A stretch of 64,000 nucleotides of DNA from Pseudomonas putida (lineage in GTDB: Bacteria > Pseudomonadota > Gammaproteobacteria > Pseudomonadales > Pseudomonadaceae). Location of the stretch: positions 2,914,001-2,978,000 of the forward strand of contig NZ_CP039371.1 of NCBI RefSeq assembly GCF_005080685.1. The letters run 5' to 3'. Every line of letters starts with the position of its first letter. Within the stretch, counting starts at the first letter, position 1. The notes beneath the pieces were generated by a model. The model worked only from the letters and a program-made list of their open reading frames with translations, had not been told where the DNA came from and made no database searches. The position numbers and the translations under genes are program-made. Shown here piece by piece: positions 7,583-9,126 of the stretch.

Positions 7583-8667
7583 CTAACGCACTTGCCGGGG
7601 CGCTGTCTCCAGGCGCGCTGCAGCGTTGCGTAGCAGCGTTTCGGTGGCCTCCCAGCCCAGGCAACCGTCGGTGATCGACACGCCATATTTCAGCGGGCCC
7701 TTGCCCAGTGCCTGGCAGCCATCGAACAGGTGGCCCTCGAGCATCACCCCGACGATCGAGCGGTCACCGCTCAGACGCTGACCGAGTACGTCCTCGAACA
7801 CCGCAGGCTGGCGTGCCGGGTCCTTGCCGCTGTTGGCGTGGCTGCAATCGACCATGATGCGTGCTTGCAACCCGGCTTTGTCCAGGCCCTGGCGTGCCTG
7901 GGCGATGCTCGCGGCATCGTGGTTGGGGCCTTTGTGGCCGCCGCGCAGCACCAGGTGGGTGTCGCCGTTGCCCAAGGTCTCGATGATCGCCGGGTAGCCC
8001 TGCGCGTCCATGCCGAAGTGACGATGCGGATGGGCCGCGCTGCGCATGGCGTCGCAGGCGATGCCGATCCCGCCGTCGGTGCCGTTCTTGAACCCGACCG
8101 GCAGCTCCAGGCCGCTGACCATCTCGCGGTGGATCTGCGATTCAGTGGTGCGTGCACCGATCGCCGCCCAGCCCAGCAGGTCGTCGAAGTAGCCCGCAGC
8201 CATCGGTTGCAGCAGTTCGGTGGCTACCGGCAGGCCGCGCTCGATCATGTTCAGCATCAACCCACGCGACAGCGCCAGGCCCGCGTGCATGTCGTCGCTG
8301 CCGTCCAGGTGCGGGTCGTAGGCCAGGCCTTTCCAGCCCACCGTGGTACGCGGCTTCTCGACGTAGGCGCGCATCACCAGCAGCAGTTGCTCGTCGACCT
8401 CGCGGCTGAGCGCGGCCAGGCGATCGGCGTATTCGATGGCCGAGCGCGGATCATGCAGCGAGCAGGGGCCAACCACCACGAGCAGGCGTGGGTCGTGTCC
8501 TTCGAGGATGGCGCGGATGGCCAGGCGGTGCTGCTGCACCTGTTGGGTGAGTTCGGTCGATAGCGGCATCTGCTGCTTGAGCAGGTGCGGGCTGGGCAGG
8601 CGCTGGCTGACGGTGGTGTTGGCAGCTTGCGGTTGGGTCAGGGCAGGGCGAGGTTGGAAGCTTGCAT
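7583..8667 (-). CDS. aroF: Class I DAHP synthase (N-terminal frameshift)
   Basis: First enzyme of the shikimate pathway, condensing phosphoenolpyruvate and erythrose 4-phosphate. Motifs VVGPCSLHDP, KPRTTVGWKG, GARTTESQIHREM and DCSHANSGK identify the AroF/AroG/AroH class. The body is intact from an internal ATG at 8569 (MPLSTELTQQV, 328 residues). Homologous-looking sequence (LTQPQAANTTVSQRLPSPHL) continues upstream without a start. An ATG at 8667 begins MQASNLALP and then hits a stop; one added base near 8641-8644 would join the two into a 361-residue protein of normal length. This is probably a homopolymer indel. Two aromatic-rich leader peptides precede the gene, so attenuation is likely. 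Confidence 0.85.
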
Positions 8668-8915: not shown

Positions 8916-8948
8916 AAAACCCCCGGTCGGGGAGCCGACCGGGGGTTT
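8916..8948 (-). terminator. Attenuator terminator of the DAHP synthase operon
   Basis: Near-perfect hairpin, stem AAACCCCCGGTCGG with a four-base loop, followed on the minus strand by TTTTGCTTTTC. It starts about 58 bases after the stop of the Phe/Tyr/Trp leader peptide and precedes the synthase gene. This position fits a transcription attenuator more than an end-of-operon terminator. Confidence 0.8.
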
Positions 8949-9006
8949 GAGTATTCTCGTATTCGGCGGCCCTCGAAGGTGGGCGCCGTGTGGGTATCAG
9001 CGGCGC

Positions 9007-9126
9007 CTAGTGGCTAAACCAATACCCAAAATAAAAGCTTGCGGGAGCTTTGCGACCGGCAACAGCCAGCACGCGGCGCTGAGGGCGACCGGTGTGGTTG
9101 GCGTGGTTGCGGGTGGGGTTCGACAT
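9007..9126 (-). CDS. Leader peptide rich in Phe, Tyr and Trp (attenuator)
   Basis: A 39-codon open frame, ATG at 9126 with a GGAGAG ribosome site five bases upstream. The peptide ends FYFGYWFSH, so six of its last nine residues are aromatic. The stop is followed about 58 bases later by a strong intrinsic terminator. GGGTAT inside the control codons (9022-9027 on the other strand) can pair with ATACCC made from 8992-8997, as in classical 1:2 pairing. By analogy with pheL and trpL, scarcity of charged aromatic tRNAs would stall the ribosome here and allow read-through to the DAHP synthase. The function is inferred. Confidence 0.75.
   Translation of the reverse strand: MSNPTRNHANHTGRPQRRVLAVAGRKAPASFYFGYWFSH

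Follow-up and report, generated by a model that had tools for sequence, protein, structure and literature searches.

The type I DAHP synthase gene aroF of Pseudomonas putida is preceded by two aromatic leader ORFs in series. The first (leader 1) is probably a ribosome-mediated attenuator that senses all three aromatic aminoacyl-tRNAs and controls aroF, to which the second (ORF2) most likely adds a further step. Leader 1 alone is a known kind of attenuator with an unusual set of inputs, and its tandem with ORF2 is new. The window analysed here is a 64,000-nucleotide stretch of contig NZ_CP039371.1 (positions 2,914,001 to 2,978,000), for which we recovered by computation the parts of the leader, their conservation, two alternative folds and a stall window. 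These results assign a likely function to an RNA still filed by Rfam as an sRNA and explain how Pseudomonas could tune the gateway enzyme of aromatic synthesis to all three products via one RNA. ORF2 is a conserved and clearly delimited second leader, and its ten frozen nucleotides pose a puzzle that can be tested. The region also has practical value for strains engineered toward aromatic compounds.

Layout and conservation of the first leader

All features lie on the minus strand, with about 460 nt between the start of leader 1 (ORF1) and the expected start of aroF:

9180-9151, minus: candidate leader promoter, found by eye and weak (TTGAAC at 9180-9175, 18 nt, TAAGCT at 9156-9151)
9136-9131, minus: leader 1 ribosome site GGAGAG, 4 nt upstream of the ATG
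9126-9007, minus: leader peptide 1 (ORF1), 39 codons, MSNPTRNHANHTGRPQRRVLAVAGRKAPASFYFGYWFSH, with the control run F-Y-F-G-Y-W-F-S and the end SFYFGYWFSH
9040-8920, minus: match to Rfam RF00627 'P15', 114.2 bits against a gathering threshold of 70, model positions 1-119 of 119
8948-8917, minus: intrinsic terminator with a 14-bp stem (10 G-C), a loop of 4 and a T-rich tail
8880-8876, minus: ORF2 ribosome site GAGGA
8868-8719, minus: leader ORF2, 49 codons, MNYATYYYASTYAWRFSQSRSGQPAASDRSISGGNAADNAQSTISRTPR, Tyr-rich, between terminator and aroF
8829-8818, minus: ORF2 core TGGCGATTTAGC, codons W-R(CGA)-F(TTT)-S
8811-8767, minus: candidate pseudoknot or competing helices within ORF2, weak (S1, 8811-8805 with 8789-8783; S2, 8796-8791 with 8772-8767)
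8719-8684, minus: stop-to-start hairpin between the ORF2 stop codon and the aroF ribosome site
8667-7583, minus: aroF, type I DAHP synthase (TIGR00034, 430 bits; Pfam DAHP_synth_1), expected start ATG at 8667

A preliminary description of this DNA had listed a 39-codon peptide with its own ribosome site that ends FYFGYWFSH, a T-tailed terminator with a 14-base GC-rich stem, pairing between GGGTAT in the control codons and a downstream ATACCC, and a DAHP synthase gene beyond them. Each of these was found as described, and the synthase is of type I. The same description held that the arrangement is classical attenuation. This part stood insofar as the leader is conserved, two exclusive folds exist and a stall window is present that shuffled sequences lack; the account was incomplete, as it was without the P15 match, the second aromatic ORF and the broken aroF frame. 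Terminator-like sites numbered three in the real sequence against a mean of 0.7 in shuffles, all three nested in one hairpin, and of 16 relatives scanned, 14 had a terminator in the equivalent position. A consensus scan returned no promoter upstream of leader 1, and the TTG and TAAG.T core of the candidate promoter is kept in an alignment of 29 loci. Pfam and NCBIfam searches gave no match for either leader peptide.

Aligning upstream regions across Pseudomonas had been proposed as a check, and in this alignment the N-terminal half of leader peptide 1 varied while the aromatic end was kept. A script demanding an ATG start detected an equivalent ORF in 159 of 163 distinct loci, and for the four misses (L072, L157, L180 and L204) other alignments or printed sequences show the ORF or a variant form. 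Around the Tyr-Trp anchor, the following residue was Phe in 63 of 66 loci and Tyr in the other three, and the two or three residues preceding Gly were nearly always Phe or Tyr. The aromatic codons of leader 1 are rare synonyms: Phe was encoded by TTT in 238 of 293 cases (22 of 535 in aroF), and Tyr by TAT in 248 of 269 (81 of 507 in aroF). Because P15 score was the criterion for picking the 55 loci from the genus, they give no measure of how frequent leader 1 is there. AroF served instead to pick the loci in a second Pseudomonas-like genus (g24), in Halomonadaceae (f36) and in one more family (f43).

In this genome the first dozen codons of aroF contain a break in the reading frame, which is intact in near relatives; the break may reflect a real mutation or a sequence error. 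A long aroF open frame with an ATG begins at 8569. The genome has three PF00793 matches. One of them, L238, is an additional type I DAHP synthase gene, and therefore the strain need not be auxotrophic. Neither TGGCGATTTA, the ORF2 motif described below, nor an aromatic ORF occurs in the 650 nt searched upstream of L238. Another of the three matches, L239, was identified as a KDO8P synthase and not a DAHP synthase.

Alternative folds and the stall window

Exclusive folds do exist, and the RNA is a chain of six segments, in which pairings 1:2, 3:4 and 5:6 compete with 2:3 and 4:5, rather than a simple pair of alternatives. The his leader is likewise a chain of six segments. We folded four Pseudomonadaceae sequences, comprising the studied stretch itself (L019), L001, L010 and L028. 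With a ribosome stalled at Tyr-Trp, the RNA below formed 2:3 and 4:5 in all four sequences, with 4:5 holding the 5' arm of the terminator. With the ribosome at the stop codon, 3:4 formed and the terminator arm was largely without upstream partners. Folding the alternatives, which had also been proposed as a check, thus gave stalled and stop-codon folds that differ as an attenuator predicts. Of the ribosome-free prefixes, those of L019 and L001 formed 1:2 and 3:4 and those of L010 and L028 did not. When the RNA was released from a point 15 nt ahead of the stop, all four gave the antiterminator. A similar switch is built from other sequences in Chromohalobacter L076.

We then quantified capture of the terminator arm across 70 loci, leaving out L066 and L067, in which the script missed the terminator. 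Capture averaged 0.56 with the ribosome stalled and 0.26 with it at the stop codon. The mean difference was 0.30 for real sequences and 0.03 with shuffled spacers. Stalled capture exceeded stop-codon capture in 69 of 70 loci, the difference being above 0.3 in 41; it was below 0.10 in 12, including the close relatives L064 and L065, and reversed in L024.

To locate the permissive positions, we moved the ribosome codon by codon, with a downstream edge of 12 nt, through the leaders of 66 loci (Halomonadaceae left out). This walk represents equilibrium folding of a paused transcript rather than kinetics. Capture was 0.51-0.57 at codons -5 to +2 around Trp, corresponding to FYFGYWFS, and 0.24-0.36 at codons -9 to -6 and +3 to +7. 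For the studied stretch, the values were 0.52-0.58 inside the window of stall positions and 0.13-0.32 outside it. Shuffled leaders gave 0.54-0.61 at all positions, with no such window. The window-minus-outside difference averaged 0.24 in real leaders against 0.00 (sd 0.09) in 198 shuffles, of which two reached the real mean. A difference above 0.1 occurred in 50 of the 66 real leaders and in 27 of the 198 shuffles. Real leaders are therefore no better than chance sequence at capturing the arm, and what distinguishes them is low capture outside the stall window. This implies that they are built to free the arm unless a ribosome sits on the aromatic run.

The boundaries of the stall window depend on the assumed footprint. 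Edges of 10, 13, 14 and 16 nt moved it by up to two codons, and at 16 nt it spanned -6 to 0, excluding the last Phe. With edges of at least 13 nt, antitermination was likewise favored when the ribosome stood at the usual stop (0.53-0.56); the studied stretch has an earlier stop, and its capture there was 0.18 with a 14-nt edge. A ribosome-free leader gave an intermediate capture of 0.46.

Leader 1 thus combines a short ORF that has a ribosome site and codons for the products of the pathway, the translation of which is predicted, with an intrinsic terminator ahead of aroF and an antiterminator that is exclusive with the terminator and, in equilibrium folding, favored by a stall on the regulatory codons. 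We propose that a ribosome stalled on a codon of F-Y-F-G-Y-W-F-S would cover segment 1, upon which 2 would pair with 3, segment 4 would capture the 5' arm of the terminator and transcription would read through. A ribosome past the aromatic run would allow 3:4 to form and the terminator to fold, so that transcription stops, and the terminated product would be the RNA known as P15. The read-through transcript would carry the second aromatic leader ORF, which is Tyr-rich and then has Trp-CGA-TTT, and which most likely adds a translation-linked control step on aroF. Ribosome stalling upon limitation for each of the amino acids, the way control runs and the action of ORF2 are all inferred here.

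P15 and precedents for the first leader

The Rfam consensus structure of P15 corresponds to the terminating fold, with 1:2, 3:4, a small hairpin and 5:6. Its entry line gives the type as 'Gene', a Pseudomonas sRNA, and has no mention of aroF, a leader peptide or ORF2. RF00627 matched 182 of 199 genomes of the genus, 181 of them above the cut-off. The 17 genus genomes with no P15 match are 3.7-5.5 Mb in size. Among 57 relatives there were 34 with a match, all within the Pseudomonas genus, and 21 genomes from 21 other genera of the order yielded none. P15 lies upstream of aroF at all 55 P15 loci read.

Several known systems resemble leader 1 in part. The enteric trp, phe and his leaders and the multivalent ilv leaders use stall-dependent alternative hairpins, and the ilv leader reads several amino acids. 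Leader 1 shares with them the stall-dependent hairpins, the six-segment chain of his and the multiple inputs of ilv; it is unlike them in taking Phe, Tyr and Trp inputs together and in having a second aromatic cistron past the terminator. Attenuation of E. coli aroF-tyrA was hypothesized by Camakaris in 1980 (cited in PMC8632094) and is tabulated as an 'attenuator sensing tyr-tRNA' (PMC2659441). It too concerns a DAHP synthase gene, a Tyr-sensitive one, but it is presented as a hypothesis and belongs to another genus (PMC8632094). In Acholeplasma, the uORFC-13-1 motif places a uORF and terminator upstream of aroF, as here, and Phe incorporation was proposed as the signal; according to the same source, this motif differs from the E. 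coli aroF-tyrA attenuator (PMC8632094). Its sequence and phylum are unlike those here, the description is of a single leader, and the proposal is based on comparison (PMC8632094). The closest precedent in the peptide is the C. glutamicum aroR-aroF attenuator (Neshat et al. 2014), which is ribosome-mediated, has a Phe-Tyr-Phe peptide before a DAHP synthase gene and responds to Phe and not to Tyr (PMC11802643). In contrast with leader 1, it belongs to an Actinobacterium, and the account available to us has no Trp in the control run it describes and describes no second leader (PMC11802643). Two leader peptides precede one gene in ermBL/ermBL2, but the source treats antibiotic-induced translational attenuation of a resistance gene rather than amino acid sensing (PMC8274638). 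The main text of a premature-terminator survey has no occurrence of aroF (PMC2965389). In the open-access literature we found no paper tying P15 to aroF or describing tandem aromatic leaders, which does not prove that none exists.

These precedents and the folding results bear on three other explanations. It is conceivable, though on balance unlikely, that a single one of the three amino acids is what counts in practice and that the other aromatic codons are passengers. Attenuation theory holds that sensitivity is set by tRNA charging and not by codon presence alone, which counts for this possibility, and aroR shows that a Phe-Tyr-Phe leader can answer to Phe and not Tyr (PMC11802643). Weighing on the other side, predicted capture was alike for stalls at Phe, Tyr and Trp codons, aromatic residues are kept around the Tyr-Trp anchor, and the motif-bearing ORF2s also have Tyr, Trp and Phe. 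We regard a response of leader 1 to all three amino acids at once as a sound prediction. It would be more surprising if P15 were a trans-acting sRNA, as filed, with the aromatic ORF incidental or a second role. Its constant position ahead of aroF, the conservation of the leader as a peptide with rare synonyms, and a consensus structure equal to the terminated attenuator state all speak against this improbable reading, whereas the Rfam type, the listing of P15 with the P. aeruginosa sRNAs that Livny et al. detected (PMC2375449) and a Sinorhizobium attenuator leader peptide that acts in trans (PMC7298713) speak for it. The suggestion that P15 is a riboswitch, made in 2008 from synteny with a TPP riboswitch (PMC2527527), is the least credible by far: the codon-level signals account for the structure, and the five matches that the leader gave at E up to 1 included no riboswitch or T-box family. 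The best reading of P15 is that of a transcript aborted at a mixed Phe/Tyr/Trp attenuator, because the predicted permissive window coincides with F-Y-F-G-Y-W-F-S and is absent in shuffled leaders.

A second leader ORF between the terminator and aroF

The ten nucleotides of the ORF2 motif TGGCGATTTA (Trp-CGA-TTT) were identical in 77 of 77 distinct sequences from Pseudomonadaceae and Halomonadaceae. To obtain this set, we selected 91 loci by TGG, any codon, TT[TC] and Gly-Gly at a fixed distance, of which 89 had a common spacing and 77 were distinct. Since the selection allowed any codon and then TT[TC], CGA and TTT are results and not conditions. The two loci dropped for spacing also have Trp-Arg-Phe. 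In the gap-free alignment, a codon TCC was kept in 75 of 77 sequences. CGA makes up 104 of 2407 Arg codons (4%) in the matching aroF genes, and the 12-mer TGGCGATTTAGC occurs once in this genome. A broader set of 135 loci contained TGGCGATTTA in an ATG-started frame, with the start assigned by best ribosome site and some loci fetched twice; in it, Tyr accounted for 23% of residues before Trp, with at least two Tyr in 133 loci. A second kept stretch near the 3' end of ORF2 (about 8735-8719), CGAAC, followed the WRF codons in 102 of these 135 loci.

How ORF2 might act was approached through the RNA around it. No intrinsic terminator follows ORF2 in the 16 loci scanned, including L073, in which no ORF2 was found, and ORF2 is thus not an attenuator of the intrinsic-terminator type. 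Nor does it resemble an ermC-type translational attenuator, as the openness of the aroF ribosome site hardly moved with ribosome position: its unpaired probability was 0.49 in free RNA, 0.43 with a ribosome stalled on ORF2 and 0.41 with one at the stop, for the 98 of 138 loci that were usable and considering simple hairpins without pseudoknots or distant pairing. A programmed frameshift from ORF2 into aroF was rejected because the two do not keep a constant frame relation across the three loci compared, with start-to-start distances of 200, 201 and 196 nt in L001, L003 and L007. The stop-to-start hairpin had a mean z of -2.5 against mononucleotide shuffles, with 62 of 70 distinct segments below -1.

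Within ORF2, partly frozen codons (GCC RCC TCC G and GGT GGC) draw the candidate pseudoknot or competing helices. Its cells were paired in 94.0% of cases, and in 99.6% for S2; shuffles gave 93.5% overall, with 7 of 500 reaching the real value. Three pairs changed on both sides, which occurred in 0 of 500 shuffles, and one S1 pair was unpaired in 50 of 77 sequences. A slide by +3 beat the candidate, with 4 pairs, 13 cells and a covariation of 0.097 against 0.073. A helix between TGGCG and the S1 5' strand, suggested by RNAalifold on 58 Pseudomonas sequences, was rejected on inspection, one of its pairs being G-G in most Halomonadaceae rows.

Among explanations for ORF2, we rank a translation-linked coupling step first, tentatively and short of an even chance. 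Rho comes next and is rather unlikely: the ribosome's position would expose or hide a Rho-loading stretch before aroF. The lack of an intrinsic terminator after ORF2 fits this idea, as do the base counts of the 47 nt before the ORF2 stop (14-20 C and 8-10 G in 14 Pseudomonas sequences, base counts being the sole measure). Simple versions nevertheless predict the wrong sign, because a ribosome stalled early under starvation would uncover the stretch and so reduce aroF. Third, and doubtful, is a small protein acting in trans. A profile of nine ORF2s matched 130 clusters of predicted proteins, the 120 listed being named hypothetical or uncharacterized protein, and the C-terminal motif RSGQPAASDRS is kept in most genus loci. 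A protein role sits poorly with a length of 29-34 residues in seven loci (31 in both Stutzerimonas) against about 50 in most others, with the absence of ORF2 beside aroF in part of family f43, and with wobble bases at CGA, TTT and TCC that are frozen beyond what a protein would need. Returning to translation-linked coupling, we consider it close to an even bet, though slightly under, that in Pseudomonadaceae and most sampled Halomonadaceae aroF stands under two serial aromatic-sensing leader cistrons, an attenuator and then a translation-linked Trp-CGA-TTT element. This two-cistron reading includes the candidate pseudoknot and the stop-to-start hairpin, and has a parallel pair in three Acinetobacter loci. 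If this is true, ORF2 would represent a novel kind of leader, one whose action involves neither a terminator nor a simple hairpin that masks the ribosome site.

Overall, TGGCGATTTA was present in 127 of 163 distinct loci, including every locus in the Pseudomonadaceae groups (55/55, 11/11, 2/2, 24/24 and 1/1). It was found in 4/5 and 26/32 Halomonadaceae loci, in 4/30 of family f43 and in 0/3 of Acinetobacter. Loci with ORF2 had 179-259 nt between terminator and aroF (12 measurable of 15). In contrast, among 15 measured f43 loci without the motif, the distance from terminator end to aroF start was 20-62 nt in 14 and 238 nt in L213. ORF2 can therefore be missing as a module. The same does not hold for the Halomonadaceae loci with no motif (L073, L140, L161, L171, L174, L180 and L183), where the terminator-to-aroF distances were 193 and 195 nt in the two that were measurable. 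Leader 1 is present without the motif in L140, L161, L171, L174, L183 and L073, and L174, the one of these that was measurable, retains the space of a second leader.

Acinetobacter L130, which has a more distant AroF, showed no aromatic leader ORFs in the stretch printed. In Acinetobacter L078-L080, a parallel pair of aromatic ORFs (ORF1 and ORF2) with a related terminator between them lies some 330 nt upstream of aroF. In these loci, a GGACT/AGTCC hairpin lies ahead of the aroF ribosome site. In genus g94 of family f43, ORF2-like frames retain TTTAGC and vary before it, L225 and L236 reading Leu-Phe and L232 having neither. Several ORF2-like frames of f43 (L224-L236) start MYRY and carry Phe-Ser-x-Trp with TTTAGC, which is similar to the FSHW ending of leader 1, as though one leader were a copy of the other.
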